Assembly (NCBI RefSeq): GCF_014647115.1
Contig: NZ_BMOO01000009.1
Location: 1-38,654 of the forward strand
Direction of reading: 5' to 3'
Origin: Halarchaeum rubridurum
GTDB taxonomy: Archaea; Halobacteriota; Halobacteria; Halobacteriales; Halobacteriaceae
Length of the DNA stretch: 38,654 nucleotides
The notes beneath the pieces were generated by a model, which was not told the origin of the DNA, did not search any database, and was given only the letters and a program-made list of their open reading frames with translations. The position numbers and the translations under genes were made by a program. This document shows, in pieces, positions 7,774 through 38,654 of the stretch (the first letter of the stretch is position 1; each line of letters starts with the position of its first letter).

Positions 7774-7787
7774 AGAGAGAACATCGT

Positions 7788-7834: not shown

Positions 7835-7851
7835 CTATTTGTTCTACAGGA

Positions 7852-10020: not shown

Positions 10021-10027
10021 TGGACCT

Positions 10028-10133
10028 CACCCCTGGTTTCCGTCGTTTCGAACCAACCCCACGTTTCCGACGTAATTTTCGACCCCCCTCGTTTCCGTCG
10101 TTTCCTCACGCCCCACCCCGGATTTCCGTCGTC
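10028..10133. repeat. origin 1 ORB-like repeats downstream of orc1/cdc6
   Basis: Four copies in one orientation of a CCCC..GTTTCCGTCGT-type element: about 10028-10049, 10055-10077, 10083-10104 and 10114-10133. The same motif occurs on the other side of the orc gene. C-rich tract plus GTTTCCGWCGT has the look of haloarchaeal origin recognition boxes, whose G-string (here on the opposite strand) is typical. These lie between the 3' ends of polB and orc. Confidence 0.75.
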
Positions 10134-10159
10134 CGCACCCACTCAGTAGTAGGGGGTCA

Positions 10160-11392
10160 CTACTCGCGAGTCCAGTCCTGCATCCGGCTGTCCTCGAGGA
10201 TCGTTTCGCGGACGACCTGGGGATCTTCGATGAGTCGGTTCTGGAGGTGGATGCCACCCGCACTCCCCTTGTTGATCTTCTCGATTTCGACAACCCCGAG
10301 GAAGGCTTGCTCTTTCAGGATGTCGCGGAATCGGCGGACGGAGAGGATATCCATATCGAGATGGTTGCAGATACGTTCGTACTGGTCGTACACCCGGCTC
10401 GTGAGGAACGCATCGTCGTTGCTGTTGACACTCAGCTCCGTGAGCGCCAGCAACGCCGCCTTCGCCTGCGTGGGTGCGCCGTTCACGAGTTCTCTGAACC
10501 GGTCCTTTTCGGCGTGCTGCTGTGCCTGGCGGACGTGTTCCTCCGTCACCTGCTCTGCCCCGGCCTCGTAGGCGACCTCGCCGGCGTGGCGAAGAATGTC
10601 GATCGCCTTCCGAGCGTCGCCGTGTTCCTGCGCGGCGAAGGCCGCCGAGAGCGGAATCACGTCCTCGGAAAGGACGCCGTCCTGGAAGGCGTCCTCACGG
10701 TTGAACATAATCTCCCGGAGCTGGTTGGCGTCGTATGGCTTGAAGAACAGCTCCTTGTGCTGGAAGCTGCTTTTCACACGCTCGTTCACGTTGTCGACGT
10801 ACTGGATCTTGTTGCTGATCGCGATGACACCGACGCTACAGTCGATTTTTCCCGCCTCCTCAGCGCGCGAGAGCTTCATCAGCACGCTGTCGTCGTTCAT
10901 CAGATCGATCTCGTCGAGGATGATGATCACAGAATCAAATTGAGCGTCGAGCGTCTTCCAGAGGAGTTTGTAGTATTTCGACGTACTGAGGCCGGTATGT
11001 GGAACGGAGATTCCAGTCGAAGATTCATCGTTCAGCTTCGCGGCCAGTGAGGAGATTGCTTGGGTCTCGGTATTGTCTTCAGCACAGTCGATATACGCTG
11101 TTCCAATCTCGACGCCATCCTGAGCGGCATTTTGAGCTCGTTGACAGACGTGTTTTGAAACGAGAGATTTGCCGGTCCCCGTTTTCCCGTAGATCATCAC
11201 GTTTTCCGGGGAGTACCCGTGGACAGCACCGTTGAGACGTTTCGCGAGCTTCGAGATTTCCTCGTCGCGACCGACGATCCGGTCAGCCTCCGGCACGTGG
11301 CCGATTTTCAGGAGATCCTTGTTCGCGAAGATTCGATGCCCGGATTCAAAGAGTGGATCGTCGACAGAACTGGGTGAAGAGTCGGGCGTCAT
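10160..11392 (-). CDS. orc: Orc1/Cdc6 replication initiator, origin 1
   Basis: 410-residue AAA+ initiator that binds origin repeats and loads the MCM helicase. Walker A is GKTGTGKS (residues ~68-75) in the sequence MIYGKTGTGKSLVSKHV, Walker B is IIILDEID, and sensor-1 is AISNKIQ. A C-terminal winged helix covers ~residues 300-395 (LLALTELS ... RFRDILKEQAFLGVVEIEKINKG). The start at 11392 fits: a TATA box (TTTATACT on the minus strand, about 11422-11429) sits ~30-37 bp upstream, implying a very short leader. ORB-like repeats flank the gene on both sides, the standard layout of a haloarchaeal origin with its cognate initiator. Confidence 0.95.
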   Translation of the reverse strand: MTPDSSPSSVDDPLFESGHRIFANKDLLKIGHVPEADRIVGRDEEISKLAKRLNGAVHGYSPENVMIYGKTGTGKSLVSKHVCQRAQNAAQDGVEIGTAYIDCAEDNTETQAISSLAAKLNDESSTGISVPHTGLSTSKYYKLLWKTLDAQFDSVIIILDEIDLMNDDSVLMKLSRAEEAGKIDCSVGVIAISNKIQYVDNVNERVKSSFQHKELFFKPYDANQLREIMFNREDAFQDGVLSEDVIPLSAAFAAQEHGDARKAIDILRHAGEVAYEAGAEQVTEEHVRQAQQHAEKDRFRELVNGAPTQAKAALLALTELSVNSNDDAFLTSRVYDQYERICNHLDMDILSVRRFRDILKEQAFLGVVEIEKINKGSAGGIHLQNRLIEDPQVVRETILEDSRMQDWTRE

Positions 11393-11421
11393 TGAATATC
11401 ACACGGTGTGAGCGGGGGGAG

Positions 11422-11429
11422 TATAAATC
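11422..11429 (-). promoter_or_regulatory. TATA box of orc (origin 1)
   Basis: TTTATACT on the minus strand, about 30 bp before the ATG at 11392, predicts transcription starting within a few bases of the start codon. An ORB-like repeat (11442-11464) lies just upstream, so the initiator could repress its own promoter. Confidence 0.55.
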
Positions 11430-11441
11430 TAGTGGAGAACG

Positions 11442-12023
11442 CCACCCCACGTTTCCGACGTTCCTTGTCCGATATCAGCCGGAAAATGCCGTCATTCGGT
11501 GGAATTGGATTGCTGACAATATAGCCGTGTTTCCGACGTGAGAGAGGAAACCCGTAGACGGAAGCATCGCCTCGATGTCGAATTCCGAACCCACACATCC
11601 CACGTTTCCGTCGTAATCACCGAACAGATGGGGAGGGGACTCGAAGAAGACGTCCACGACGAGATACCAAAGACGAGAGCCGCCTATCCGTCCAATACTG
11701 GCCGTCTACAGAAGCAGCTGGAAAGGATCGTTTCATCTGAGGGGGCGAAGACTTCGCCCCCTCTTTGGTCGAAGTACACTTAATGAACGTTACTCAGCTA
11801 TACCACTTTAATCTATGTGTTGCAGAAATTAGTTCATCTCTAGATTATTAGTTCATCTCTAGATTGGTTCTAGGTCAACAGAATTAGTGGCTGTATAGCA
11901 CTATCGTAGCCTCTCCCTACGCCCTCGTGGAGAAACGACGGAAACGCGGGGGGTGTGGTCCCTTCGAAATCAGCGTCACCCCCTCCACCAACATCCAGTT
12001 ACGACGGAAACGTGGGGTGGGTG
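11442..12023. other. replication origin 1
   Basis: The 736-bp gene-free stretch between orc and the HNH gene. It holds forward ORB-like repeats at 11442-11464 and 11596-11618, a partial one at 11526-11541, and inverted copies at 11934-11956 and 11999-12023. Between the two orientations lies an AT-rich segment (about 11770-11900) with a perfect tandem 19-bp repeat, the likely unwinding element. Oppositely oriented ORBs around an AT-rich tract beside orc1/cdc6 is the classical archaeal origin layout. The short minus-strand frame ending PVNPDE-stop at 12042-12044 resembles only the last residues of the DUF6788-like protein and is not called as a gene. Confidence 0.8.
11828..11865. repeat. tandem 19-bp AT-rich repeat (probable DUE)
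   Basis: ATTAGTTCATCTCTAGATT occurs twice back to back (11828-11846 and 11847-11865) without a mismatch. It sits in the centre of the AT-rich part of origin 1, between oppositely oriented ORB-like repeats. It is probably the duplex-unwinding element or an additional iteron. Confidence 0.65.
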
Positions 12024-12128
12024 TCCTCCATCATTGAGTTTTACTCGTCCGGGTTGACGGGCCATCCATACTCTGCGGCATCTCGTCGAGTTCTGTCCTG
12101 AGCAAGGTATCTTCCTCCGGACCTGTTC

Positions 12129-12776
12129 TCAGAGCAATTTCGGACGAAGCGGGACGCCTTCCCATCTGGTGTGACAAGGCTCACAGAGCGAGACTAGATT
12201 CGATGGATTGTGAGCAGCTTCGACCTCATCCTCATCGAACTCCGCGAACGGCCGAATATGATGTACTCGCGGCGTATATCCGAGCTCGTTTTCGCTACGA
12301 CCACACCCCTGGCAGGTTCGATTATCTCGCTCTAAGACCTGTTCACGCCGCTCTTTCCATAGCGGTCCATAGTTCGGGGTTGATTCCCAATCGTAGGTAG
12401 CTGTCTCCTGCTGCCATTCCCACTGACAGTCCCGACTGCAGAAATGGCGATCAGCTGATTCGATATCGTACTGAATCCGCCCGATTGTCTCGCCGCAGTT
12501 TGTACATTCTGTCTGTGGACGATTTTCTATCTGCCATCGTCCCCTACACTCGTTGCTACAGAACTGGTTTGTCTGATCGTCTTTGAGATTCCACTCGTAT
12601 TGTTTGAAATCCGTCCCACAGTAGTCGCATTGGAGGACGACTCTATTGTCCTTTTGTTCAGACCGCCAATTCCCCTGACACGTCTTATCGCAGAAGTGGT
12701 GCTCTGCACGCTCCACTACCGACGGAGGTCTTGAGATTGTCTCACCACAGAAATCACACTCAACTTCGATGGGCAT
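12129..12776 (-). CDS. HNH endonuclease with three N-terminal zinc fingers
   Basis: 215 residues. Three similar units of about 40 residues begin with CDFC, CDYC and CTNC and each ends in FC..(T/E/D)CQ or FCSNECRGRW, looking like MYM/TRASH-type zinc knuckles. The C-terminal ~70 residues form an HNH nuclease: CQGCGRSE, then RVHHIRPF, NPSNLVSLCEPCH and a final RWEGVPLRP. HNH proteins of this kind nick or cut DNA, and the fingers probably provide DNA binding. It lies next to origin 1 on the minus strand. The role could be homing, defence or plasmid processing. Nothing in the sequence decides between these. Confidence 0.85.
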   Translation of the reverse strand: MPIEVECDFCGETISRPPSVVERAEHHFCDKTCQGNWRSEQKDNRVVLQCDYCGTDFKQYEWNLKDDQTNQFCSNECRGRWQIENRPQTECTNCGETIGRIQYDIESADRHFCSRDCQWEWQQETATYDWESTPNYGPLWKERREQVLERDNRTCQGCGRSENELGYTPRVHHIRPFAEFDEDEVEAAHNPSNLVSLCEPCHTRWEGVPLRPKLL

Positions 12777-12830: not shown

Positions 12831-13154
12831 CTATTCGTCCGGGTTGACCGGCCCTTTATATTTGGACTTCACTGAATCGCCCTCCCGCCACTGCCAGTAG
12901 TAGTAGCGGTTGTCGTTGATCTCCTTGATCGTGATCGTCGCTTTGGCAGGGACGTCGTCCGGGAGATCGTCCGGTCGCTCTTCGACCTCTTCTTGATCTG
13001 CCGACTCCTCGAGACGGGCCTCTCGTTCCTTGTGCTCGGCGAGCGCTTCAGCGTACGTCGCAACGTCTCGGAGCTGCTCCGGGTCCGACTCGTTGAGCGT
13101 GTTGACGATCTCCGTCGGGAGGTTCGCCGGTGGGGTCGGGGGTTCGTAGGACAT
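12831..13154 (-). CDS. DUF6788-like plasmid protein
   Basis: 107 residues: a Pro-rich start (MSYEPPTPPANLP), a charged helical middle, and a C-terminal beta-rich domain (KATITIKEINDNRYYYWQWREG..KSKYKGPVNPDE). I associate that domain with DUF6788, frequent in haloarchaeal plasmids and viruses. Its function is unknown. The start codon is 14 bp from inverted-repeat copy B, which it shares with the divergent wHTH gene. The first residues and the upstream region are duplicated at 20166-20294. Confidence 0.65.
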   Translation of the reverse strand: MSYEPPTPPANLPTEIVNTLNESDPEQLRDVATYAEALAEHKEREARLEESADQEEVEERPDDLPDDVPAKATITIKEINDNRYYYWQWREGDSVKSKYKGPVNPDE

Positions 13155-13220
13155 CGGCTCTTCTCGTGTTAACCAACACGCCCCACGAATCCATAGTTTT
13201 GTTGGTTAAGTCGATGGAGA
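13127..13220. repeat. 94-bp repeat carrying inverted-repeat copy B
   Basis: Nearly identical to 20201-20294 in the same orientation. It covers the start of the DUF6788-like gene and the inverted repeat TTAACCAACAC (13169-13179) / TTGTTGGTTAA (13199-13209), whose 19-bp spacer is the same in both copies except at its first bases. The two copies bracket the wHTH-NTase pair and the methyltransferase-like/HEPN island. Confidence 0.85.
13169..13209. repeat. TTAACCAACA inverted repeat, copy B
   Basis: Arms 13169-13179 and 13199-13209, 41 bp in all, in the 138-bp gap between divergent genes. A TATA box for the rightward gene lies 50 bp further right. The position fits an operator acting on both promoters. 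Confidence 0.85.
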
Positions 13221-13261
13221 CAGTTCTCGCGACCGCTGACTGTAACACTACTCGAAACTTC

Positions 13262-13269
13262 TTTATATA
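13262..13269 (+). promoter_or_regulatory. TATA box of the wHTH gene
   Basis: CTTTATATAC is centred about 27 bp before the GTG at 13293, the distance expected for a leaderless transcript. This supports the GTG as start over the out-of-frame ATG at 13283. Confidence 0.6.
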
Positions 13270-13292
13270 CAAGTTTCGTACTATGTTACACC

Positions 13293-14219
13293 GTGCTCCG
13301 GCGTATCGAACTCGAGGTCCTCGCCACGGTCGACCGCGGCGACACGATCTCCGAACTCGCGACGAAGCTCAACCACAGCGAGAGCTACCTCTCTCGTGCC
13401 GTCGCCGACCTCGTCGAAAAGGGACTCGTCTACACGGAACGCGACGGGCGGCGAAAACGAGTCGTTCCGTCGGATGCTCGCGCCGTCGAACTCTACCGGG
13501 ACCTCGTCCGCCAGCACTCCCACATCGACTTCCCCGAACTGCTGACGGGCAAGGCACTCGAGGTGCTGTACTACCTCGACCAGCCGCGAACCGTCTCCGA
13601 AATCGCTGACCGGAGCGACAACTACCGCAACACGGTCAACCGCGTCCTCAAGCGGTTTCGTGACCGTGGTCTCGTCGGGACGGCCGACGGCCACTACGAG
13701 TTCAACGCCGACTTCGACCGCCTCCACGCGTTCGCCCGTGAACTCGCACACCAGCTGCATCGCCAGCGCCTCGAAGCCGTCGCCCCGAAGGGGACGATTC
13801 TCTGGGAGGGCTACGACGAATTCCTCGCGCAGGCCGAGAAGGAGATCGACGCAGAGGGGTTCCACGAAACCGGCCTCGCTCGATTCGCGGCCTTCGACCT
13901 CCAGTTCCTGCTCACCGGCCACCGCTACTACGTCTACTCCGAAGACCTCGACGCAGTCTCGCCGGCGGAGCTCTGCTGTCACACGCTGCTGATCGACGAC
14001 GGCAGCCGCCACCGCTCGTACTGTCTCCTCCTGCTCAGCCACGTCGACGTCGACGAGGAGGACCTCCGAGAGCAGGCGGCGAAGTATGGCCTCGAAGACG
14101 AAATCGACGCCTTGCTCCGCTACCTCGAGACGCACGGCGAGGTCGACGACGACCGTCTCCCGGAGTGGGACGAGTTCCAGGAGCTAGCGGCTGACTACGA
14201 GGTGCCACTACCACAATGA
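13293..14219 (+). CDS. winged-helix regulator, partner of nucleotidyltransferase
   Basis: 308 residues starting with GTG. Two helix-turn-helix units are visible: residues ~5-55 (ELEVLATVDRGDTISELATKLNHSESYLSRAVADLVEKGLV) and ~85-125 (GKALEVLYYLDQPRTVSEIADRSDNYRNTVNRVLKRF). A ~180-residue C-terminal part with a Tyr-rich segment (GHRYYVYSEDLDAV) may sense or bind the partner. The stop overlaps the next start by 4 bp (ATGA), so the genes are translationally coupled. The order regulator first, nucleotidyltransferase second, resembles AbiE/MNT-type toxin-antitoxin or abortive-infection modules, with this protein as the antitoxin-like partner. That role is inference. Confidence 0.75.
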   Translation: MLRRIELEVLATVDRGDTISELATKLNHSESYLSRAVADLVEKGLVYTERDGRRKRVVPSDARAVELYRDLVRQHSHIDFPELLTGKALEVLYYLDQPRTVSEIADRSDNYRNTVNRVLKRFRDRGLVGTADGHYEFNADFDRLHAFARELAHQLHRQRLEAVAPKGTILWEGYDEFLAQAEKEIDAEGFHETGLARFAAFDLQFLLTGHRYYVYSEDLDAVSPAELCCHTLLIDDGSRHRSYCLLLLSHVDVDEEDLREQAAKYGLEDEIDALLRYLETHGEVDDDRLPEWDEFQELAADYEVPLPQ

Positions 14220-15149: not shown

Positions 15150-18100
15150 GTGAACCAAGAGCTGACACCAGCGGACATTCGAACATGGGATTCAGTTTCG
15201 GCGGTCCGTCAAACGTTTAATGAGCTTGGCTTCGGCCCAAACCGCATCGATTGGTTTGGAGTCTCGAGCACTACTACAGACGATGTTTCTGAGATCAGTT
15301 TTGAATTTGAACAGGATCTATCCTGTGCGATAATCCTACAAGAGGATCTTGAAGACGCGTGGTTGGTCGGACACATTCCGAAACCAATTGGCACACCGTC
15401 GATCCGGTATCATCAGTTCGAACCAAGAGTAGATTCAAATAACCGGGCGGAACTTCGAGAGACGCTTGATCGGCTCAACGCTCTGGATCCAGAATCACCG
15501 CGCTCAAGATTTGACGCGCTCGCGAAATCTGAATTGAACAGCCGGTTTTCGAACCTGTTCTCGAACCTTATCAAGGACGTTGCGAAAAAAGTAGACCACG
15601 AGATCCCTGATTCAGCAGGAAATTCTAGGTCTGTTGCAAGATGTCTGGTTCTTTCTGCGCTGCGAGCAAAGGTAATTTCAGAAAAATCGAGTAACTCTAG
15701 TGTTAGTTTCGTTGAACGTTTTCAAAACACTGCGTTTCCCGCCTCCACCTCGGTTCCGGAGACGATCAAACCATTGCGGCAGTCCTTAAGCAATCAGGAA
15801 AATGGTTTGTCATTTGTGTCCGATGAGACGGTTCAGTTGCTCTGTGATCGATTCGAAAGTGAGTTTAACAGGTTTGATTGGTTATTGACAGACAGCGGGT
15901 GGGGTGGTTTGGATGAAGTCACCGCACATACCATCGGCGTGGCGCTTGAGCGCCACTTGACAAATAAGCAGGGGGAAACCTATCAAACGCCTGCAGAACT
16001 CACGACGAGTATCACAGCTGAAGCGGTTGAATCCGCTGTACTGGAACGAATAAACACTACTGTCTCCGAGACTTATACAGATCTCTCCGAAGTCATTGGC
16101 ACTGACCTCACGTCTGAAGCTGATCCTGCTGATACAGATCGGAGAGAATTGAACCGAGAGCTTCTCAGTATAGTTGCTACAGATATTATTCCAGACCTAC
16201 ACATTGTTGATCCAGCCATGGGAAGTGGGGTATTCCTTCATTCTGCATTAGATTCGCTCGTTCGGTTGCGGAGGTACATCGCCTCTGTCGAAAATGTCCC
16301 GACTCCCACCGATTCATACTCGTATCCTTCGGATCTAGATAGTCATGGGGAGAATTCTCACCGTGTGTGGACCACTATCACGCAGAACTTATTCGGTGTT
16401 GATATTGATCCCGAAGCCGTCTCACTGACTCGTTTCCGCCTGGAGTTAGCATATCTTTGCACCCTAAATCCGGGTGAGGATCCGATTCCGCCGCGGAGCG
16501 AATATAACTTCAAGCAAGGGAACAGTATCGTCGGCAAGCCATTTAGTTCGGATCCACCACATTGGTCAAACCAGTTGCCTCTCTCCGCATTCTTCCAAAA
16601 TGACGATCTGACATCTGAACATCCACACGGAACGGTGTCGGCACAATCGACCGCCAATGAGGTTCGTACACATCTGGAAGAGTACCGAAGTAATATTCAG
16701 TCTAATTCGAATCCACAAGTCACGATAAGAGAACAAATACGTAAAAGAACGGAGGCTATTGACCACCAGCTTGAATATAAACTATCCAATAATAGCGAGC
16801 ATAGCGATCAAGAAGATGTCGGAGATGTAGATCCTTTCCATTGGCCACTTGAATTTCCCCTTGTCATGGAACGTGGGGGTTTCGACGTTGTCTTGTTCCA
16901 TGGATCATGGTCTGAGTCTGGCCTACGCGACGCGGTCAACTCATCGACATTGGAGTTTTTAAAATCTGGGTGGCAGTATTATCTTCCCAACTCCGGTAGC
17001 TGGCGACGAACAAACGATGTGCTAGATTCGTTCTTCCTCCATCGTGCCCATGACGTCGTACGTCAAGGCGGGGTTGTCGCTTCGTTAGTTGATGCATCAG
17101 TACTGACTGCTCCCGGTTCAAGGCATATACGGCGCAGATACTTAGAAACGACAGATATCGAACGAGTAGCCACTTTTAGAAATCAAAATACCTTTGATCA
17201 GATTGATCGGAGGTTCCGTTATGCGGTTGTAGTCGCTCAAACGACGGAACAGCCGGGTACGTTCAAATTGGGATCCGGTTTCGTTACCCCGGAGGATTTG
17301 ACGGATGAGCGGAATTATTTCGAATTGGATCCTGATTTCGTATACCGATTCTCCCCGAACACACAAGCATTTCCACTTTTGGAGCGCGATATTCAATATA
17401 GGGCCTTACAGCGGTTGCTTGAAGCGCCGGTTCTCCAAGATCATGAGACCGCTGAAGGTTGGTCTATACGACCATCCGGTGAATTCAATCAAACAACAGA
17501 TAGTAAGTACATCTCAGAGGCCCCGTACGAGGCAAGTGACCCAATTTATCGGGGTAAGAACATATACCAGTATGCTTATCAGAATGTACCTGAGGCGGAA
17601 GTTAACCAGCCTGATCTCTGGACGATTCCCCAATCAACCGATCAAGGACTGTCAACTAGAGAATATTTGCGGGAGCAAAAGCGAACAGGAAATTCTGAGA
17701 AGTTGAAAGCAGAGTCACCACGAATTGTCTACCGACGGATCACCAGGAACACTAACGAGCGGAGTATGATTGCTTGTTTACTCCCATCAGACTATTTCCA
17801 TGTGAACTCGCTCCGTGGTCTCGATCCATACTTTGGCGACCAAGGGGACTTAGGGCGTCGATTAGTCCTCTTAGGTTTGTTGAATAGTATCCCATACGAT
17901 TATTTGCTACGTCAAAAAATCGCCACGTCCGTCCCGAATTATATACTATTTGAAACGCGTGTCCCGTTTGTCTCGGAAGACCACGACCTGTTTGATCCCA
18001 TCAAACACCGAGTAGGGAAATTGAACTTAGTCGGGAAGCCATTTGAAAAGGAAAAGCAGAGATTAGGTATACAGGAGCTGGGGTCAGAAGAGGCAAGAAG

Positions 18101-18281
18101 AGAAGTTCGCGCAGAAATTGACGCGGCTGCTTTCGATCTTTATGGGTTTGAGGATTCCGAAATTGTAGGTCGCGTTTTGAACGATTTCGGATTTGTTCGC
18201 GATCCAAGAGTGATGGATTCAGAGTACTTCGAGCTCGTTCGATCCGCCTTCAAGAATGGTGATTATCTCGATGAGTCGTGA
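15150..18281 (+). CDS. Eco57I/PglX-like methyltransferase homologue lacking NPPY
   Basis: 1043 residues from a GTG with a ribosome binding site (GGAG, 15136-15139) about 10 bases upstream. The architecture is that of large N6-adenine methyltransferases of type IIG/BREX. A helical N-terminal region is followed by GETYQTPAELTT (where active relatives have GAYYTP), motif I D354PAMGSG, and LFGVDIDPEAVSLTRFRLEL. Then come NFKQGNSIVGKP and a specificity domain with RIVYRRITRNTNERSMIACLLP (from R858). The catalytic motif IV, expected as GNPPY after FDVVL, reads F583-HGSW587, so adenine methylation should be lost while SAM binding may remain. The gene is markedly AT-richer than its flanks, indicating transfer. 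The downstream HEPN gene overlaps its 3' end. Confidence 0.85.
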   Translation: MNQELTPADIRTWDSVSAVRQTFNELGFGPNRIDWFGVSSTTTDDVSEISFEFEQDLSCAIILQEDLEDAWLVGHIPKPIGTPSIRYHQFEPRVDSNNRAELRETLDRLNALDPESPRSRFDALAKSELNSRFSNLFSNLIKDVAKKVDHEIPDSAGNSRSVARCLVLSALRAKVISEKSSNSSVSFVERFQNTAFPASTSVPETIKPLRQSLSNQENGLSFVSDETVQLLCDRFESEFNRFDWLLTDSGWGGLDEVTAHTIGVALERHLTNKQGETYQTPAELTTSITAEAVESAVLERINTTVSETYTDLSEVIGTDLTSEADPADTDRRELNRELLSIVATDIIPDLHIVDPAMGSGVFLHSALDSLVRLRRYIASVENVPTPTDSYSYPSDLDSHGENSHRVWTTITQNLFGVDIDPEAVSLTRFRLELAYLCTLNPGEDPIPPRSEYNFKQGNSIVGKPFSSDPPHWSNQLPLSAFFQNDDLTSEHPHGTVSAQSTANEVRTHLEEYRSNIQSNSNPQVTIREQIRKRTEAIDHQLEYKLSNNSEHSDQEDVGDVDPFHWPLEFPLVMERGGFDVVLFHGSWSESGLRDAVNSSTLEFLKSGWQYYLPNSGSWRRTNDVLDSFFLHRAHDVVRQGGVVASLVDASVLTAPGSRHIRRRYLETTDIERVATFRNQNTFDQIDRRFRYAVVVAQTTEQPGTFKLGSGFVTPEDLTDERNYFELDPDFVYRFSPNTQAFPLLERDIQYRALQRLLEAPVLQDHETAEGWSIRPSGEFNQTTDSKYISEAPYEASDPIYRGKNIYQYAYQNVPEAEVNQPDLWTIPQSTDQGLSTREYLREQKRTGNSEKLKAESPRIVYRRITRNTNERSMIACLLPSDYFHVNSLRGLDPYFGDQGDLGRRLVLLGLLNSIPYDYLLRQKIATSVPNYILFETRVPFVSEDHDLFDPIKHRVGKLNLVGKPFEKEKQRLGIQELGSEEARREVRAEIDAAAFDLYGFEDSEIVGRVLNDFGFVRDPRVMDSEYFELVRSAFKNGDYLDES

Positions 18282-19845
18282 AGACTTCATTGCGGATGCT
18301 TTCAAAGAATTGAAGGAAATTATAAAGAGCCAAGAGGATGGCTCTGTCGAAATCACTCCGGGTGAAGACCGGTTAGGTGAGATTCTAGTCACTGGTACAG
18401 AAAACTATCCGGTACTAGTTGGCGCGATTGCTGCGAATTATATTGATACCGGCGACCAGCCAGAACATCTTGATCTTGCTGCGACGGTGGAGGGCTACTC
18501 TGCAGATCGCTGGGAACGTCTAGTCCATCGGGCACTAATGGATGTCGTACAGAGATATCAACGCCAACGGCCGCAAGAGGAGGGGCAGGAAAGTGCTGGC
18601 AACACATCTTCGGAGCAATCTGATTTGGATAGCAAATTGATGGATATAGCGGGGATGGCTGGAAGTGATGATCGGGAGTCGAATAGCGGAGAAGATTCGC
18701 CATTTGTTAACCCTTCAGACCAAGATGTAGTTGAACGGTTTGAATCTTCTTTAGAAGATTTAGTTGAATCTCTTGATGAACGGGAATTTGAATTCTATTT
18801 CCCATTGAATATTGGGGAATCTGTACGAGACCAGTTTTTGGTTGATGGTGTAGAAATTGAGCGTGTGGAGAATTCAGAAGTTGCATCCTTATTCGATTCA
18901 GCAGCTATTGATGACATTCTATCAGGGACAGAGACTTTTGAGGATCTACTCGAGAGCCTTGGTCTTCACCCAACCCCATACAATTCGAATTGGTACTGGC
19001 GGTGTACCATAACGGCTCCTTCCTCTGAAGAGGGTGTCACGTCAGCCCAGGACATAATCAACATTCTACTTGGGAAGATAAACTACTCGATTTTCTATAA
19101 CTCTGACTTATTGCGAGAAGAGACGCTAAATGAATTGCTGGGTTCAAATCTTCCGGATGAAACTGTGATTGTCGAGAGACCGGCGTTCATATTGGTTTGT
19201 GACGATGGAGATCTCTTAGACGCGGAGATCATGTCCGCCGAATTTGGGAACCCCGTGGAACTAGACCACCAATTCCAGAGCACATACAAAGAATTGGGGC
19301 TTCAGAAATTCCCGCCTTCCTACGGTCGTCCGACAGAGTATACCCTCGCATCTGCGTTGCAAGGATTCATTTCAGCTGCAGTTGCCAATTACCCTCGTGA
19401 GTCATTTTTTGCCTATTGGAGAGCACTAGAAGATCTTTCTTTCACGGACCCTGAGGACAGCAGCAGCGTGGACGTTCTTAAACGAACTGGCCGTCTTTGC
19501 TCACTGGATAATATCACCCCTCTCTATAAACGGTTACTTGAAACTAGAAACGCGCTCGTTCACTCCGGTGGAAGTCCAACAATTACCGCGAGGGACACGA
19601 TCGTCCTGCGTGAAATCTTCTTAGATGCCTTTCCTGAGGTTCGCGACTTAGAGCGTCATACATTGAGTAAAAGTAAGAACACGAATATGAATTATGTCCT
19701 CAAATATTTAGAAGACTCCAATGATATGGATCGAGTTAAAGATGATGTTAATGATAACATAGATGATCTAAACAACAGGATTGAGGAGAATAAGCGGAAG
19801 ATTGAAGCGATAGATGCCTTGGAGAGTTGGAAAGACCTACAATAA
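18271..19845 (+). CDS. HEPN-domain protein, putative RNase effector
   Basis: 524 residues. The ATG at 18271 is preferred to the one at 18256 because a GGTGA lies 9 bases upstream. Both overlap the preceding gene, giving tight coupling. Residues ~1-350 are unrecognised: an acidic linker around 100-150, then a beta-rich part (FYFPLNIGESV...; WYWRCTITAP). The C-terminal region from ~355 (ASALQGFISAAVANYPRESFFAYWRALEDLSF) through LYKRLLETR426NALVH431SGG looks like an ApeA/Apea-like HEPN domain. RN..VH is the R-x4-6-H signature of HEPN RNases. A coiled coil (DDLNNRIEENKRKIEAID) ends the protein. It is AT-rich like its partner. A plausible role is an RNA-cleaving effector released by the DNA-sensing partner. 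Confidence 0.75.
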   Translation: MSREDFIADAFKELKEIIKSQEDGSVEITPGEDRLGEILVTGTENYPVLVGAIAANYIDTGDQPEHLDLAATVEGYSADRWERLVHRALMDVVQRYQRQRPQEEGQESAGNTSSEQSDLDSKLMDIAGMAGSDDRESNSGEDSPFVNPSDQDVVERFESSLEDLVESLDEREFEFYFPLNIGESVRDQFLVDGVEIERVENSEVASLFDSAAIDDILSGTETFEDLLESLGLHPTPYNSNWYWRCTITAPSSEEGVTSAQDIINILLGKINYSIFYNSDLLREETLNELLGSNLPDETVIVERPAFILVCDDGDLLDAEIMSAEFGNPVELDHQFQSTYKELGLQKFPPSYGRPTEYTLASALQGFISAAVANYPRESFFAYWRALEDLSFTDPEDSSSVDVLKRTGRLCSLDNITPLYKRLLETRNALVHSGGSPTITARDTIVLREIFLDAFPEVRDLERHTLSKSKNTNMNYVLKYLEDSNDMDRVKDDVNDNIDDLNNRIEENKRKIEAIDALESWKDLQ

Positions 19846-29186: not shown

Positions 29187-30257
29187 TCAGAGAGGGTGTC
29201 GTGTGATACCGTCAATGCCGCTCTCAGTCACACGGAGGAGCCACGTTGACGGGTTGTTGTCTTCTTTCCCGCTATTGATTGGTGCTGGTGCTCCGGTAAC
29301 AAGGACGGGTGTTTGGAACTCATCAAGCGTGCCCTGTTGACCGACGTGCATGTGTCCGGAGACGATGATGTCAATTTCAGACGATGTTTGTTCAATAGCC
29401 TTCCGAAAGTCTGCGCCCCTCTTTTGATGTATGTGGTGCCCGTTTTCATTCCGAACGGGATATGGAGTATCGTGGACGACCAATACATTCGCGTTTGAAA
29501 GTACTGATTGAACCGAGGCTTCGAGCGACTCGCCCGGGAAGCTATCGTGGCTGTAATCGATCCCGAATAGCGTAACGCCTGCTTCCCCTACTGATTTTCC
29601 ATCGTTGGAGAGACGCTCAATCCCCGACGTATCGTTAGTTGCTCTATCAACTGTTCGACGGCTAGCAGGCTCGTCGTGGTTCCCGTAGATGTAGTAGAAT
29701 GGAATATTGAGCTCTGAGTTGAGGGCGTCTATCACAAAGGACCGGTCTGCTCCGATAGCAACGTGATCGAAAATGTCCCCAGCGTGGACAATGGCATCAG
29801 CGTCTAGAGTGTTGGCCTGATCCATTACCGCTTGGAAGCGATCACGAGCGTCGAGATCTTTGGCACCTTTTGCTTTCTTATCACGGCGGCGATGCCGATA
29901 ACCAACGTGGGTGTCGCCGACCATCAAGAGTCGCGTCGCGTTGTCATCGGACGAACCGAGTTCAATTACTGTCAGGTTCTTCGTACTGTCGAGCTGGTAG
30001 TGTCGACTTCCACCCTGTGACCAGTACCTTCCTCGGACGTCTTTCAGTTCGTACCGGTGACCTTCGGTAAGCGAAAGGGAGAGAGAATGAGTCGACCAGA
30101 TTTTAAGAGGGATTGTATGTCCGTCTGCATCCTCGACTGTAACTTCAAAATCGAGTTTGTTACTGCTGGAGGGCGAGACTTCTCGAACGAGGACTGTGAT
30201 AGGACTGGAAAGACGGTCATTACGAGGGAGGTCATATCGAGTAAACATTAACTTCAT
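29187..30257 (-). CDS. metallophosphoesterase with N-terminal OB-fold
   Basis: 356 residues. A second Met (MFTRYD) three codons in is an alternative start. Residues ~15-100 look like an OB-fold nucleic-acid-binding domain (ITVLVREVSPSSSNKLDFEV.. IPLKIWSTHSL.. GHRYELKDVRGRYW). From ~110 the calcineurin-like core shows the metal motifs in order: VGDTHVGYR, HAGDIFDH, YGNHDEPASRR, VVHDTPYP and SGHMHVGQQ. This is the Mre11/SbcD arrangement without the capping domain and without an SbcC partner nearby. It may be a DNA or RNA phosphodiesterase or nuclease. It is clearly less GC-rich than its neighbours, so probably an acquired cargo gene. Confidence 0.82.
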   Translation of the reverse strand: MKLMFTRYDLPRNDRLSSPITVLVREVSPSSSNKLDFEVTVEDADGHTIPLKIWSTHSLSLSLTEGHRYELKDVRGRYWSQGGSRHYQLDSTKNLTVIELGSSDDNATRLLMVGDTHVGYRHRRRDKKAKGAKDLDARDRFQAVMDQANTLDADAIVHAGDIFDHVAIGADRSFVIDALNSELNIPFYYIYGNHDEPASRRTVDRATNDTSGIERLSNDGKSVGEAGVTLFGIDYSHDSFPGESLEASVQSVLSNANVLVVHDTPYPVRNENGHHIHQKRGADFRKAIEQTSSEIDIIVSGHMHVGQQGTLDEFQTPVLVTGAPAPINSGKEDNNPSTWLLRVTESGIDGITRHPL

Positions 30258-31852: not shown

Positions 31853-33247
31853 CATTGGTGTTCGGTTAAGCACTGGATCGTCTCATGAAGGCCTCAGCTA
31901 CTCGTTCGCTGAGTAAGAGCCGCGATTTCTCTGGTTGGCGGGCGTCACGAAACATCAGTTCCGACAGGTTCGGCGGTGGATGGCCGAACGACTGGGCCAG
32001 ATCTTCGAGAATGAGCTGGGCGAGAGACCGGAAGGTCTTCGCCCAGCGTTCTCGGGGGAACACGATCTCTGGGAACAACTCCTGAAACACCCCGAGTAAT
32101 GCTCTGCTGACCGTCAGCGTCAGCAGAGCCGCCACCACTAACAGCTCGACGATCGCTGGATCACTCGTCTGGAACTTCTCCAGCCCATACAGCGACTTCA
32201 GTTCCCGGAACAGCAACTCCACTTCCCATCGCAACCCGTACAGCGCCCCGACCTGCCTCGGAGTGAACTCATCGGGCAGATTCGTCACGTACAGGTGGTA
32301 GTCGTCGGTGTCCTCGTTGCGGACACCGACGACGCGAAACTCCATCGAATCCGTTGACTGCTTCCCAACGTATGCCCGCCGTTTGAACTCGATCTCCACG
32401 GTTACGTCGATGATCTCCCGACTGAGATCTCCCAGAACGTCCCGAAGACGACGCTCTGGCAAGGAAATGGCGCGCCCGCGCCATTTCCGTCGCTCTCCGA
32501 CGATCAACGGATTCGCGTTCGACTTCAGCCGACTCAGGAAGAACCCGCCGTTCTCGTCGATCAACGCGAACCGGCGGAAACTGTAGAAGCCCAGATCGAA
32601 CAGTAACAGCCGCCCTCGCAGCCAACTCCCGGTGCGGAGTTGGCTGCTCTCGTGGGTGCATTCGTCGGTGAGCTGGAACTGCTCGATCGTCTGCTTGCTC
32701 GCGTTCTGTACGACGTGGAGTTTCGCGCCAGATTGACCTGGGTGAGTCGCGGGAAACGCATCGAGGAGCCGATGCAACCTGAAAACGGTTGCATCGGCGA
32801 TCAGCACGTCTCGAAACAGCTCGAACTGTGGCGCGATTGTGTGAGGAACCGCAACCTCCTCGAGAGCGTGCTCGAGGAGGTCGCTCAACAGTGCTGCGAG
32901 GGCCGGCGTGAACCGATCGTAGAAGCTGGAGCGGGCAACGGTCTGGTTGGTTGCTGCGGAGTACGCCCGTTGAAAGCCGGCGATAGTTCGGGCTTCGCCG
33001 TCGACGGCGAAGCCCATGATGAGCGTCCAGACGAGCATCGTGATGTCGATTTTCCGATCACGCTGGACGACATCGCGCTCGCGCGCGATGTCTTCGATTA
33101 GCTCGGTGGGAAACAGGGAAGTCAACCGCCGTCGTATGAGATCCGGGGAGAGCGTTTTGAACACATTCTCTCCCCACGCGGTCTACAACGATAGCTTCGT
33201 CACTAGAGCGCTGTCTGTCGGTTTCTCCGCTTAACCGAACACGGATG
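31853..33247 (-). mobile_element. ISH8-like IS4-family insertion sequence, complete
   Basis: 1395 bp with terminal inverted repeats CATTGGTGTTCGGTTAAGC (left, 31853-31871) and CATCCGTGTTCGGTTAAGC (right end read inward, to 33247), differing at two positions. It is flanked by the perfect 10-bp duplication GGTCGCGTAC. Length, ends and transposase all fit the ISH8 group of IS4. It is inserted in the symporter gene. Confidence 0.92.
31866..33164 (-). CDS. IS4-family (ISH8-like) transposase
   Basis: 432-residue DDE transposase. First Asp in LIADATVFRLH, second in LLLFDLGFYSFRRF, and the YREK signature Y-x2-R-x3-E-x6-K in LYGLRWEVELLFRELKSLYGLEKF. The N-terminus (MFKTLSPDLIRRRLTSLFP) and the GRTIAGFQRAYSAAT-type region are typical of ISH8 relatives. 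The gene is intact and ends 13 bp from the left terminus of the element, so it may be active. It stands in the opposite direction to the symporter it interrupts. Confidence 0.95.
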   Translation of the reverse strand: MFKTLSPDLIRRRLTSLFPTELIEDIARERDVVQRDRKIDITMLVWTLIMGFAVDGEARTIAGFQRAYSAATNQTVARSSFYDRFTPALAALLSDLLEHALEEVAVPHTIAPQFELFRDVLIADATVFRLHRLLDAFPATHPGQSGAKLHVVQNASKQTIEQFQLTDECTHESSQLRTGSWLRGRLLLFDLGFYSFRRFALIDENGGFFLSRLKSNANPLIVGERRKWRGRAISLPERRLRDVLGDLSREIIDVTVEIEFKRRAYVGKQSTDSMEFRVVGVRNEDTDDYHLYVTNLPDEFTPRQVGALYGLRWEVELLFRELKSLYGLEKFQTSDPAIVELLVVAALLTLTVSRALLGVFQELFPEIVFPRERWAKTFRSLAQLILEDLAQSFGHPPPNLSELMFRDARQPEKSRLLLSERVAEAFMRRSSA

Positions 33248-34258: not shown

Positions 34259-34944
34259 TCGACGCCAAGCCCTGCGCTACCGAGACTGGATCCGTAGCGA
34301 GCCGCGCCACACACTCGGCACTCCCAGATCGGTTGGCCCGTCCACGCTGCATCCGGGACCGACTCGTGGGTCTTGAATCGATGGTCGGTCGCCCGTCCAC
34401 AGGTTTGACAGTCGAGTTCCTGAGTCGTCGGTACCGACGACACCTGGCGATCAGCCGCAGCCTCGCCAGTAGATTCGGTCAGCGCCATCGCTGGAACCAG
34501 CCATATCGCGTCGTCGGCGTCGTCGAGGACCGCGCCGAGACCCGACTCGTCGCGGATGCCGTCCCCACGCTGGTCGTAGAGCCGCGTCGGGGCCTGCTGC
34601 TGGTGCGCCGTGGCTCCCTGCCCGTGCCACCCTGTCTGGTCATGGGCGGCTGTGAGCAGTTGCTCACCCGCTGCTGAGGCAGCTTGTACCGCGTCGGGGA
34701 GCGACGGCCATCGGTCGGCCACCTGGCGCGCAGGCGTCTCTTCGAGGTCGTAGATGAGGGTGTAGTCGTCGACGGCCGGCTCCGCCTCGTTGGCAGAGAG
34801 GAGGTTCGCCGCAGCGGCGCCCTTCGCGACAGCGCCGTAGAACGTGGGCGACTCGACGACCAGGTGGACGATGCCGAGAACCGTCGTCGACGCTGACTCG
34901 GCCGTGCGTAACTCACTCTTGATTATACAAGAAAGTACAAACAT
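34255..34944 (-). CDS. zinc-finger-containing accessory protein, start uncertain
   Basis: About 229 residues if the ATG at 34942-34944 is used. The conserved-looking part starts near LGIVHLVVESPTFYGAVAKGAAAANLL, so the true start may be a rarer codon further in. The N-terminal ~90 residues (DDYTLIYDLEETPARQVADRWPSLPDAVQAASAAGEQLL) are a compact alpha/beta domain. The C-terminal ~50 residues hold a CxxC ... CxxC zinc ribbon (LDCQTCGRATDHRF ... IWECRVCGAARYGSSLG). It is divergent from the HTH gene at 34988 with a shared AT-rich promoter region. I recall such proteins beside haloarchaeal HTH genes on plasmids, but the function is unknown. Confidence 0.6.
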   Translation of the reverse strand: MFVLSCIIKSELRTAESASTTVLGIVHLVVESPTFYGAVAKGAAAANLLSANEAEPAVDDYTLIYDLEETPARQVADRWPSLPDAVQAASAAGEQLLTAAHDQTGWHGQGATAHQQQAPTRLYDQRGDGIRDESGLGAVLDDADDAIWLVPAMALTESTGEAAADRQVSSVPTTQELDCQTCGRATDHRFKTHESVPDAAWTGQPIWECRVCGAARYGSSLGSAGLGVD

Positions 34945-34987
34945 ATATGGGAGTTCAACGCTAATCCTGTCGCAAGAGGTGCCAAGC
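34917..34987. promoter_or_regulatory. divergent AT-rich promoter region
   Basis: AT-rich gap in GC-rich surroundings. ACATATATGG (34941-34950) is a TATA candidate for the rightward HTH gene, and TTGTATAATC on the minus strand (about 34920-34930) one for the leftward gene. If the leftward TATA is right, the leftward protein must start downstream of 34905, not at 34944. Confidence 0.45.
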
Positions 34988-35539
34988 ATGTCCGAACCCT
35001 CGCGAGATGGAATGCAGTCGTGGAGTGAGTCGATGAGCGCCCGTGACCGTATTCGAGCGGTCGCCGAGACGCTTCGCGAGCCGCGGTCGGTCAACTGGAT
35101 CAGCGAGCAGGCCGATGCTGCCTGGAGTACGACCAACGAGGAACTGCAGGATCTCGTCGACCAAGGCCAGTTGCGTCGCGTCGAGGCCGGCGAGACCACG
35201 CGCTACCAGCCGGATTACACGCGACTACTCTTCGAGGAAATCCGCACGCTCATCGAGGAGAACACGCGCGAGGAGTTACGCAACGAACTGGCGGCGATTA
35301 CCGAGGAGATCGAGGCGTGGCAGGCGACCTACGACGTCGAGACGTGGGAGGAGCTCGAACAGTCGCTCGCCGACGGTGACCTCGCAAGTGCCGAGCTTCG
35401 CGAGCGCCGCGACGTCATCGCGTTCTGGCGTGAGAACAAGGAGGATCGCCGCCTCATCAAGCATGCACTGGAACTCTACTCTGACGTCGAAGCCGCCCGT
35501 GAACAGATGAGCGACGTGGCTGACCGCGCCACGAGCTAA
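34988..35539 (+). CDS. winged-helix regulator (DUF7342-like)
   Basis: 183 residues from the ATG at 34988. Residues ~15-75 form a winged helix (MSARDRIRAVAETLREPRSVNWISEQADAAWSTTNEELQDLVDQGQL), and the wing is RRVEAGETTRYQPDYTRLL. A long acidic helical region follows (LFEEIRTLIEENTREELRNELAAITEEIEAWQATYDVETWEELEQS.. ELRERRDVIAFWRENKEDRRLIKHALELY). I associate this layout with DUF7342-type haloarchaeal regulators. It is followed after 16 bp by a 162-aa gene on the same strand. The pair has a regulator-effector look, possibly a toxin-antitoxin module, but nothing proves that. Confidence 0.75.
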   Translation: MSEPSRDGMQSWSESMSARDRIRAVAETLREPRSVNWISEQADAAWSTTNEELQDLVDQGQLRRVEAGETTRYQPDYTRLLFEEIRTLIEENTREELRNELAAITEEIEAWQATYDVETWEELEQSLADGDLASAELRERRDVIAFWRENKEDRRLIKHALELYSDVEAAREQMSDVADRATS

Positions 35540-35555
35540 TCCTTTCTCTCACAGC

Positions 35556-36044
35556 ATGATCTTTCTTGCCGGTCGCGATCGCTATACACAGCGGACTCTT
35601 CTCCGCGACGTTCACGACCGATTGACGAGGCAGGCTGGGTGTGAGGACGTGCGCTATCGGCCGTCTCGACGCCGTCCCCGGTACGTTATCGCGGATGTCG
35701 ATCCGACGACGTTCCTGAGTGACTCCTACGATGCGGCGACCGCACGACTGGAGATTCGTTTCTGGTACCCAGCTGACGTCGACCATGAATACTACCGCAT
35801 CAACTGGGTCGAACCCGAGCGGAACCTGATGCTCGGCTTCCACCAGGACGCCGATCATCCGGATCTTGGCCCCTGTCACATCCAACTCAACCACGACGAC
35901 ACGCCGGTTGATCGGCATCGCGCATCGTTTCTCGATGCGCATCCACTCGCCGTCCTTGATGACCGACTCCGACAGTTCCCGGCGGCGGTCGAGGCGATTC
36001 GCTGGGAGAATGGAGCGCCCTCGCTTCCTACCTGGCCGGTCTAG
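35556..36044 (+). CDS. partner of the winged-helix gene, 162 aa
   Basis: 162 residues: MIFLAGRDRYTQRTLLRDVHDRL, then alpha/beta sequence (YVIADVDPTTFLSDSYDAATARLEIRFWYPADVDHEYYRINWVEPERNLMLGFHQDADHPDLGPCHIQLNHDDTPVDRH) and a C-terminal helix. The HQDADHPDLGPCHIQLNHDD segment is rich in His and Asp and could bind metal. It is very likely in an operon with the upstream HTH gene. I recall this pairing from other haloarchaeal plasmids but know no function. Confidence 0.65.
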   Translation: MIFLAGRDRYTQRTLLRDVHDRLTRQAGCEDVRYRPSRRRPRYVIADVDPTTFLSDSYDAATARLEIRFWYPADVDHEYYRINWVEPERNLMLGFHQDADHPDLGPCHIQLNHDDTPVDRHRASFLDAHPLAVLDDRLRQFPAAVEAIRWENGAPSLPTWPV

Positions 36045-36513
36045 ACAGCGAGTTCATCGAGCGTCTGGTGATGCGTCACGACGCCAAGAATGTTCGGACA
36101 GAGAAGTGCAGGTGAACAGAGTAGGTGTCGAGTGTTACAGTGGGGGGAGGGGGAGAGTAGATGTCGAGTGTTAGCCGACCGGAGACGCCCGGGAGTCGGT
36201 GGTGTGAGGAGGGGTGGGAGAGTAGATGTCGAGTGTTAGCGCCGGCGAGAGGAGGCAGAGATGAGGAGAGTGGCGACGTGCTGAGTCCGCTTCGCTGACG
36301 CTCTCCTCTCTTTCTTCTTCTAGACTAGCTAGTAAGTAGTAGTGTATAGATTATATCTTTCGGTTTCGGCAAAGCGCTTGATTCTGAGTTCACACGCCAT
36401 CTTCGTCGTGGTTACACTCGACACCACCTCTATCTCTACCACTTAAAGAACTCTATCACTCGACGCACTCGACACGTGGTTTTAAGCCCCTCCGGTTGGT
36501 TGATGTCGCCAAT
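36045..36513. other. replication origin 2
   Basis: A gene-free 469-bp region directly upstream of the second orc1/cdc6. Three forward repeats AGAGTAG(A/G)TGTCGAGTGTTA lie at 36118-36137, 36154-36173 and 36219-36238, the last two preceded by G-rich tracts. An inverted copy lies at 36412-36431, and partial inverted copies (CACTCGAC) at 36457-36464 and 36466-36473. Between the two orientations is an AT-rich stretch at about 36310-36362 (CTAGCTAGTAAGTAGTAGTG, TATAGATTATATC), the probable unwinding element. The repeat sequence is unrelated to that of origin 1. Confidence 0.82.
36480..36486 (+). promoter_or_regulatory. TATA-like element of the second orc
   Basis: GGTTTTAAGCC about 30 bp before the ATG at 36514 fits a near-leaderless transcript. 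It is adjacent to the inverted partial origin repeats, allowing autoregulation. Confidence 0.5.
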
Positions 36514-37713
36514 ATGGGGATCTTCGACGGCGCGACCGACGGCATCTACCGCGACAAAGACGTCTTGGACGAAGACTACCAACCCGACCAAGTCCTCGAA
36601 CGCGAAGACGAGATCGCCGACTACCGCGACGCCCTCCTCGACGTCCTCTTCGGGCGCACTCCCGACAACATCTTCCTCTACGGGAAAGCCGGCGTCGGGA
36701 AAACCGCCGTCACCAACTTCGTCCTCGGCGAACTCCAGGCCGAAGTCGAAACTCGCGACACCGCCGACCCCATCCACATCTCCCGCGTCAACTGCGACAG
36801 CGAAACCACCTACAGCGTCATCCGCGAACTCGCGAACGGGCTCCTCCCCGCCACTCACTCTCCGTACGCCGCGAAAGGCTACTCGACGAGTGACCTCTTC
36901 GACGAACTCTACGAGCAGATGGAGCGCGTCGGCGGCACCCACCTCATCGTCCTCGACGAAGTCGACCATCTCTCTGACCCCGACGCACTCCTCTACCAGC
37001 TCCCTCGCGCACGCGCAAACGGCTACCTCAACGATGCTCGTGTCGGCATCATCGGCATCTCGAACAACTACACCTTCCGCAACACCCTCTCCTCGAAAGT
37101 CAAATCGACCCTCATGGAGACCGAAATCTCCTTCTCGACGTACGACGCCGACGAACTCGTCTCCATCCTTGAACACCGCGCCGACCTCGCCTTCCAACCC
37201 GGCGTCTGCGAGGACTCCGCGATAACACTCTGCGCCGCGTACGCCGCGAAAGACGACGGCTCCGCCCGCCAAGCAATCGATCTGCTACGCGCCGCCGCAG
37301 ACGCCGCCTGGAAAGCTGACGACCCCACCATCACCGACGCCCACGTCAAGGATGTCCGCGATGACGTCGACCGCGGCCAACTCCACGACAAGATCAGCGA
37401 CCAGACAACGAACGCACAGCGCGTCCTCGAAGCCGCCGCACGACTCCAGAACGAACACGGCGAGCCTGCACGCACACGCGAAATCCAGGAGTCCTACCAG
37501 CAGCTCGCGCGTTCCTACGGCGACCCTGACCCGAGCACGTCACTCAAGTTCGCACAGCGCCATCTTGACGACCTCGAAATGCTCGGATTCGTCATTAAGA
37601 GCGAAGAGAACCGCGGCAAGGGCGGTGGCCGCAGCTATATTTGGGAAGTCGATATGGACCTCGAAACGGTCATCGATGTCCGCGAAGACATTGAGCAGAC
37701 AAACGCCGCGTAG
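36514..37713 (+). CDS. orc: Orc1/Cdc6 replication initiator, origin 2
   Basis: 399 residues from the ATG at 36514 (MGIFDGATDGIYRDKDVLDE). An in-frame TTG six codons upstream is less likely. AAA+ motifs: Walker A GKAGVGKT in IFLYGKAGVGKTAVTNFV, Walker B LIVLDEVDHL, sensor-1 IIGISNNYTFR, and a GSARQAIDLLRAAADAA sensor-2 helix. The C-terminal winged helix spans ~residues 290-385 (TREIQESYQQLARSYG.. RHLDDLEMLGFVIKSEENRGKGGGRSYIWEV). It differs strongly from the orc at 10160 and sits next to its own repeat set, so the two should act on separate origins. It is in the plasmid/accessory Orc class rather than the chromosomal Orc1-1 type, judged only by context. Confidence 0.95.
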   Translation: MGIFDGATDGIYRDKDVLDEDYQPDQVLEREDEIADYRDALLDVLFGRTPDNIFLYGKAGVGKTAVTNFVLGELQAEVETRDTADPIHISRVNCDSETTYSVIRELANGLLPATHSPYAAKGYSTSDLFDELYEQMERVGGTHLIVLDEVDHLSDPDALLYQLPRARANGYLNDARVGIIGISNNYTFRNTLSSKVKSTLMETEISFSTYDADELVSILEHRADLAFQPGVCEDSAITLCAAYAAKDDGSARQAIDLLRAAADAAWKADDPTITDAHVKDVRDDVDRGQLHDKISDQTTNAQRVLEAAARLQNEHGEPARTREIQESYQQLARSYGDPDPSTSLKFAQRHLDDLEMLGFVIKSEENRGKGGGRSYIWEVDMDLETVIDVREDIEQTNAA

Positions 37714-37953
37714 TCGGAATCTCTGACCCCCACGAGAGATGAGGTCAACAGCCGAGAGCCGGCGACAACGGTGTCGTGGAAGCGGGCGAAAGAAGCGGCG
37801 CAAAACGAGTTAGAGTCACGCAACTGGAACCCCATGTCAGGACTACGATGTCCAGATTCCAACATCTGAGATGAAGGTCTCCCTCACACGCGAGGCGTGC
37901 GACGGACGCCTGTACAGGGGAACTTTACCCGTGCGCAGTTCCGAGTAGTCGAT

Positions 37954-38654
37954 ATGCCGTTCGTTGCTGAGTCCGCCGACAACGGCCCTATTGCGCCACC
38001 GGAGGCCGAAGCCGGCGAGATATACACGTGTCCCGAGTGCGATGGCGACCTCGGTGTTCGGTCCTCCCACCTCCGGGGCAACATCTTCGTCTCCCGCCAT
38101 TTCTACCATCTCGGGGGAGACGGCGGGTCGTGTGGCGGAGAGTCCGACCAGCACCGGCGCATGAAGGCCGTCGCGTACTCGAAAGCGGCTGACCGATGGC
38201 CAGACGCGACCGTCTCCTACGAAGAGCCCGTCGGCGACCGCCAAGCCGACGTCCTCGTCGAGTTCGTAGAGCGCCACCCGAACTACGGTGACGGCGTCGC
38301 TATCGAGTGCCAGTATCGGAACGGCGGGAAGGACTATGACGCGACCGAGCATACGTACGCCGACAACGGCTACTCGACGCTCTGGCTCGAAGAGGAGCAC
38401 TTCGAGCGGAAGGACGTCGACCTTGACGCCGGTGACTGGCGGCTCGGCTGGCCGCTCGCGACGCCGTCGACTGACGAGTGGACGGGCTACCACGGCGTCG
38501 TCCGGTGGCTCCAGCAGGATAAGGACGCGCCAGTCGAACTCGAAATCCCGTTTCCTGAAGAGTGCATTGAGGATCTCTTCTCCATAGAGTGGACGCGCGG
38601 GCACATCTGGTACAACCGGCGGTATAACGCAGACGAAGGCCGAGTCCACGTCTA
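37954..38654 (+). CDS. CoiA-like nuclease domain protein, 3' end outside window
   Basis: Begins at the ATG 37954 and runs open off the window end (233 codons seen). It starts with a zinc-binding segment (IYTCPECDGDLGVRSSHLRG...HFYHLGGDGGSCGGESDQHRRMK). A PD-(D/E)xK-like core follows, as in competence protein CoiA: SKAADRWP, QADVLVEFVERHP and VAIECQYRNGGKDY, where D and E-x-Q are the expected catalytic positions. GYSTLWLEEEHFERKD comes after these. CoiA acts with incoming DNA during transformation in bacteria. In haloarchaeal plasmids such genes are common and their role is unproven. The 240-bp gap before it shows no gene. Confidence 0.75.
   Translation, partial: MPFVAESADNGPIAPPEAEAGEIYTCPECDGDLGVRSSHLRGNIFVSRHFYHLGGDGGSCGGESDQHRRMKAVAYSKAADRWPDATVSYEEPVGDRQADVLVEFVERHPNYGDGVAIECQYRNGGKDYDATEHTYADNGYSTLWLEEEHFERKDVDLDAGDWRLGWPLATPSTDEWTGYHGVVRWLQQDKDAPVELEIPFPEECIEDLFSIEWTRGHIWYNRRYNADEGRVHV

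Follow-up and report, generated by a model that had tools for sequence, protein, structure and literature searches.

In Halarchaeum rubridurum, a module of about 3.2 kb that carries an origin of replication (ori2) and its own initiator gene (orc2) has probably replaced a TFB gene in a replicating backbone of the orc4 type, so that the plasmid would have two independent pairs of initiator and origin. Directly visible in the sequences compared are the genes and boxes, the two junctions, the order of backbone genes to the left and right of the module, and the lack of relation between ori1 and ori2 boxes. The module, made up of boxes, an AT-rich core, orc2 and a CoiA-like gene, would have taken the TFB slot; Orc2 would bind its own boxes, melt the AT-rich core and load the helicase, and Orc4 would perform the same steps at the resident origin, ori1. 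The window analysed is the entire contig C9 (38,654 bases) of a draft genome of 25 contigs, in which contigs C16 to C25 read as N.

A sequence-only reading of the window had proposed two different pairs of initiator and origin separated by some 24 kb, and ori1 with orc4 and ori2 with orc2 bear this out. It had also called the pairs orthogonal, which is likely as Orc2 and Orc4 are 30% identical and the two origins do not have any box in common. The features of the ori1 slot are as follows.

7804-10020, plus strand: family B DNA polymerase, a backbone gene adjoining the ori1 slot
10036-12011: ori1 region, with GTTTCCGWCG boxes either side of orc4, six on the plus and two on the minus strand
10160-11392, minus strand: orc4, the ori1 initiator
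12831-13154, minus strand: small backbone protein adjoining the ori1 slot, which also marks this slot on contigs C6 and C8

The eight GTTTCCGWCG boxes compare with 0.58 expected. Over 2,041 bases the ori1 region is 95.8% identical to Halobacterium pNRC200 (NC_002608), and it has 90-97% identity to plasmids from several further genera; the pNRC200 orc4 module and its relatives, alike at ori1, are without the ori2 module. Full-length orc4 (at least 88% identity) is present in 26 PLSDB records, a count that contains some duplicates of one plasmid, and 20 of these have two or more Orc-like places (E 1e-5); multiple Orc genes are the rule on orc4-type plasmids. Constant co-inheritance of the two origins, which had been considered, does not hold. 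The best orc4 match in H. acidiphilum, which has ori2, is 49% identical, and many plasmids carry orc4 while no PLSDB plasmid carries an Orc with more than 64% identity to Orc2.

Within the window, 1.3-15.1 kb and 21.1-36.08 kb match plasmids from many haloarchaeal genera, not as one continuous backbone but in pieces that cover at most 56% of each query. The stretch from 15.1 to 21.1 kb, with restriction-modification-like genes and their neighbours, is mostly outside the backbone matches. At 15150-19845 it encodes candidate defence cargo, a methyltransferase of 1043 aa that by weak family matches is Type IIG or DrmMI-like, together with a partner of 529 aa. At the other end of the backbone match, the following were found.

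34844-36044, plus strand: genes for a DUF7342 protein and a 162-aa protein, the last left-side backbone genes
36041-36076, minus strand: TFB remnant, the last 11 codons (THHQTLDELAV) and the stop
36077/36078: left junction of the ori2 module, where backbone homology stops within a TFB gene

Of the right-hand backbone matches the longest, to Halorientalis marina, runs to 36081; those of L123 and L125 stop at 36077. The left junction was compared by eye in 15 relatives, a subset of the 60 PLSDB records in which the neighbouring 162-aa gene is present. In 14 of the 15 the sequence continues into a convergent TFB gene, entering it at the 3′ end; the exception, Halobacterium hubeiense, departs earlier and then has a TBP gene. 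The module has a second copy in the same genome, on contig C6 (96%), and a further one in H. acidiphilum (95-96%). The junction is shared, all three loci departing from TFB at one identical base. In several relatives an annotated full-length TFB lies farther along, behind another gene, therefore this spot is variable in general.

Beyond the junction, the module contains the following features.

36118-36137, plus strand: ori2 box 1 (AGAGTAGGTGTCGAGTGTTA), which is AGAGTAGATGTCGAGTGTTA with one change
36154-36173, plus strand: ori2 box 2, an exact AGAGTAGATGTCGAGTGTTA 20-mer with a G-rich stretch before it
36219-36238, plus strand: ori2 box 3, an exact AGAGTAGATGTCGAGTGTTA 20-mer, likewise preceded by a G-rich stretch
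36300-36359: AT-rich core, between the direct and inverted boxes
36412-36431, minus strand: inverted ori2 box, the sole minus-strand copy of AGAGTAGATGTCGAGTGTTA, diverged, with four changes
36456-36473, minus strand: pair of tandem half-boxes 9 bp apart, agreeing at 8/9 positions, closely preceding the TATA-like element (TTTTAAG) of orc2
36514-37713, plus strand: orc2, Orc1/Cdc6 initiator, 399 aa, intact
37897-38654, plus strand: CoiA-like gene of the foreign module, incomplete where the contig stops; the H. acidiphilum counterpart has 408 aa

The boxes (36118-36475, upstream of orc2) are of the GTCGAGTGTTA type, three direct and at least two inverted, and flank the AT-rich core, which is 35% GC against a mean of 57.5% for the window and is presumed to be the unwinding element. 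With one mismatch or fewer, GTCGAGTGTTA has five matches in the 38,654 bases, three on the plus and two on the minus strand, every one within 36127-36464; 1.01 are expected and 1 of 100 shuffles reached five. Within 930 bases around the orc2 start there are five box matches at two mismatches or fewer, against 0.18 expected. Repeats in both orientations around an AT-rich core, next to a different orc1/cdc6, had been described from the letters of the sequence; the coordinates were right, as were the core and the neighbouring gene. Since the inverted 20-mer occurs only with four changes, however, 'both orientations' is accurate for the core GTCGAGTGTTA and not for the whole of AGAGTAGATGTCGAGTGTTA. 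With an adjacent orc, inverted boxes above chance, an AT-rich core and boxes shared by the family, ori2 has the sequence features of Orc1/Cdc6-dependent haloarchaeal origins.

The 9-bp tandem at the orc promoter is present, with 8 or 9 of the 9 positions matching, in 20 of 39 Orc2-family loci, each of these 20 being above at least 98% of 200 shuffles. It is presumed to be an autoregulatory site, in that Orc2 would occupy the half-boxes at its promoter and limit its own expression. For autoregulation of archaeal cdc6, bacterial dnaA was the sole case named in a limited literature search that took in passages of PMC3936714.

The product of orc2 is a full Orc1/Cdc6 protein (TIGR02928, 7.7e-115) with AAA+, Cdc6 lid and winged-helix domains; an alternative start, an open TTG, lies upstream at 36496. 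Relatives of orc2 were not found in viral contigs by tblastn. The CoiA-like gene is so named because some of its weak matches, about 40% identical, are annotated as CoiA; it had no hit in Pfam or NCBIfam profile searches. Class-wide, Orc2 relatives of 52-56% identity have TTTCG[TA][GC]TG[TC][TC] boxes in the 700 nt upstream at 32 of 34 loci, with 87 boxes upstream of the 34 loci, where shuffles give an expectation of 0.12; the flanks downstream contain 4. The TGTCGAGTGTTA box of the window is a variant of this motif. The closest annotated relatives, in Haloferax mediterranei pHME132 and Halorussus plasmids (64, 53 and 53% identity), have TTCGAGTGTTC or TTTGGAGTGTTC boxes in an ori2-like layout, in other plasmid contexts. 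A resident paralogue of orc2 lies on contig C14 (L025, 7300-9900, minus strand; 65%), with ATTTGGAGTGTTC boxes and an ori2-like layout. The segment with this paralogue (C14 ~7394-9702) is missing from the collinear C13, therefore this third origin, like ori2, comes or goes as one block.

In the Orc2 tree, TCGAG and TGGAG boxes are each found within both of two fully supported clades, one with Halorussus aquaticus and H. caseinilyticus, the other with C14, Haloferax mediterranei and C9/C6. This base has therefore changed at least twice. Orc2 and the C14 Orc would be predicted to tell TCGAGTGTT from TGGAGTGTT boxes.

The window stops 2,577 bases into the ori2 module, inside the CoiA-like gene, and the remainder was read from H. 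acidiphilum (L089), where the CoiA-like gene (11401-12627) is followed by a gene for an OB-fold protein (12878-13768). From base 12295, L089 matches the starts of C13 (97.0%) and C14 (88.9%). The last 68 bases of C9 and C6 are identical, as are the first 68 of C13 and C14, therefore both contig pairs are probably joined by the 136 bases of H. acidiphilum. With all four ends meeting in a short common sequence, either C13 or C14 may be the partner of C9. The Halorientalis litorea plasmid has PolB, Orc, MarR, ArdC, a restriction gene, DUF7342, the 162-aa gene and TFB, then the right arm, which in Halorientalis plasmids is OB-fold protein, primase and T4SS ATPase. C9 followed by C13 or C14 reproduces this order, with the ori2 module at the position of TFB.

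The right arm is present in Halarchaeum sp. CBA1220 (C13 93.9%, C14 86.1%) without ori2. Homology begins at base 474 of C13/C14, which is L089 12768, thus the H. acidiphilum module extends over ~9610-12767 (3.16 kb). In place of ori2, the CBA1220 interval contains TFB, a transporter and an Orc of another type, 40% identical to orc2. Backbone flanks without the module have been found on both sides, the left in 14 of 15 loci and the right in CBA1220. Other Orc genes were seen near the same backbone spot in CBA1220 (L177 3067-4275) and Halovenus salina (L172 1-392), a hint that origins may favour this place.

The left end of C9 coincides with base 1256 of C10, and circular closure through that contig was considered. 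The first 724 bases of C9 are a copy of an IS5-type transposase, therefore the link is an IS repeat and closure was rejected; the overlaps of C9 with C10 and C4 are due to the following feature.

3-653: transposase of the IS5 type, truncated where the contig begins

It is quite conceivable, if not the favoured outcome, that one origin is dormant or vestigial and the plasmid runs on the other. Redundancy had been suggested as another reason for two origins, and in published plasmids of haloarchaea a second origin can lie dormant. Only one of the two origins of Haloferax mediterranei pHM500 fires in the wild type, and dormancy has been proposed for origins of recent acquisition (PMC4595724). In H. 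acidiphilum the reading frame of orc2 (L089 10001-11230) changes at about residue 255, therefore the gene is broken there or mis-sequenced. In H. rubridurum, however, orc2 is intact and, between the copies on C9 and C6, is under purifying selection, with dN of 0.006 and dS of 0.127 (30 silent changes and 4 changed codons). The Orc2 proteins of these copies are 99% identical and their ori2 box sets are unchanged.

Rather unlikely, although to be taken seriously, is the arrival of ori2 with the whole right arm, through recombination of related plasmids at the TFB site, the module being native to the right-arm lineage. Most left-arm proteins share 84-98% identity with those of the Halorientalis litorea plasmid (the exceptions are 51 and 78%), right-arm proteins 54-78%. 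With this step, ori2 marks the border of a mosaic and may have come in along with its arm, and because the arms differ in ancestry recombination between two related plasmids has to be considered. The coinciding ends of C9 and C6, and starts of C13 and C14, are consistent with this, as the two copies may share the linkage of ori2 and right arm. On contig C157 of H. acidiphilum, the C-terminal part of an orc2-like gene (81%; L119 17537-18034) lies 175 bp from the start of the right arm. It appears to be an older, degraded origin of the ori2 kind, a hint of earlier linkage between ori2 and this arm. In CBA1220, however, the right arm has TFB, another Orc and other genes instead of ori2; the module may have come by itself or together with its arm.

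Fusion of two whole plasmids, each giving one origin, had been suggested for this window, with the intervening DNA marking the join, and is improbable. It would account for two unrelated initiators and for arms of different ancestry meeting at ori2. Contig C6 also holds TFB and OB-fold protein genes (74922-78318), upstream of its ori2 module, which suggests that C6 may combine two backbones as a joined plasmid. In the window, however, the genes on the two sides of ori2 follow the order of plasmids with a single backbone, only about 3.2 kb between matched flanks is foreign, and none of the reference backbone genes is duplicated, in a molecule of which the remainder is unassembled. The junction is at 36077/36078 rather than in the DNA between the origins. 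Least likely is that the repeats are only regulatory sites of orc2 and not an origin, since, although there are tandem half-boxes at the promoter, the other boxes extend ~390 bases upstream and face each other across the AT-rich core, as in proven haloarchaeal origins.

The content of the ori1 slot differs between contigs. C6 and C8 have diverged left arms, each with an Orc beside the same small gene as orc4. These Orcs (C6 13713-15002 and C8 21891-23114) and orc4 on C9 have mutual identities of 29-38%, and that of C6 is 82% identical to the Orc in this slot in Halorientalis litorea. Three different Orc families thus occupy the slot on three contigs of one genome.

In Haloarcula hispanica (PMC3936714), each of three origins requires its adjacent Cdc6, which is Orc-origin specificity; one active origin-Cdc6 pair per replicon is enough, and an oriC2 plasmid is incompatible with the wild type. 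With identical ori2 boxes and 99% identical Orc2, the sister plasmids of H. rubridurum should be incompatible. A speculative and rather doubtful explanation for their coexistence is that origin slots are exchangeable compatibility types, each plasmid having in slot 1 an initiator of its own: orc4 on C9, an Orc unrelated to it on C6 and yet another on C8. Exchange of the origin module on a retained backbone would allow near-identical conjugative plasmids in one cell, and one-base box changes such as TCGAG to TGGAG, which two Orc clades and the resident C14 paralogue display, would be a finer version of this escape. This presupposes that C6 and C9 are separate molecules in what is a draft assembly. 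The multireplicon IncF plasmids of bacteria have several replicons per plasmid, which is thought to ease incompatibility; their proteins and origins are unrelated to those of the ori1/ori2 plasmid.

Two-origin plasmids and origin recruitment have already been published for haloarchaea, and the H. rubridurum case fits this known type of event. Recruitment into extrachromosomal replicons and variable regions is proposed in PMC3528665 and PMC4441112. The origins described in the former (Wu et al., 2012) are like ori2 in having orc/cdc6 beside inverted boxes around an AT-rich region and boxes that follow the Orc family, and there are several per replicon, with two in pNG500 and four predicted in the H. 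hispanica minichromosome. The difference is that Orc2 is at most 64% identical to PLSDB plasmid Orcs, against the 80% family threshold used there. Likewise, pHM500 has two Orc-associated origins on one plasmid, oriP1-cdc6L and oriP2-cdc6M (PMC4595724); activity was measured there, one firing and one dormant, whereas here the junctions of an acquired origin have been mapped.

New here are the exact junctions, the swappable slots, the one-base box change in two Orc clades and the 9-bp promoter tandem. Both edges of a recruited origin are seen to the base, whereas earlier proposals of recruitment rested on whole-replicon comparisons. The ori2 slot holds other genes in relatives, and a second slot has three initiators on three related contigs, a natural set for how initiator specificity, dormancy and incompatibility decide the coexistence of archaeal plasmids.

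The backbone of the window also carries, as cargo, a TnpB-family RNA-guided nuclease (6252-7610) and a DDE transposase (31866-33164). A metallophosphoesterase with an N-terminal extension, weakly similar to Mre11, is encoded at 29187-30257.
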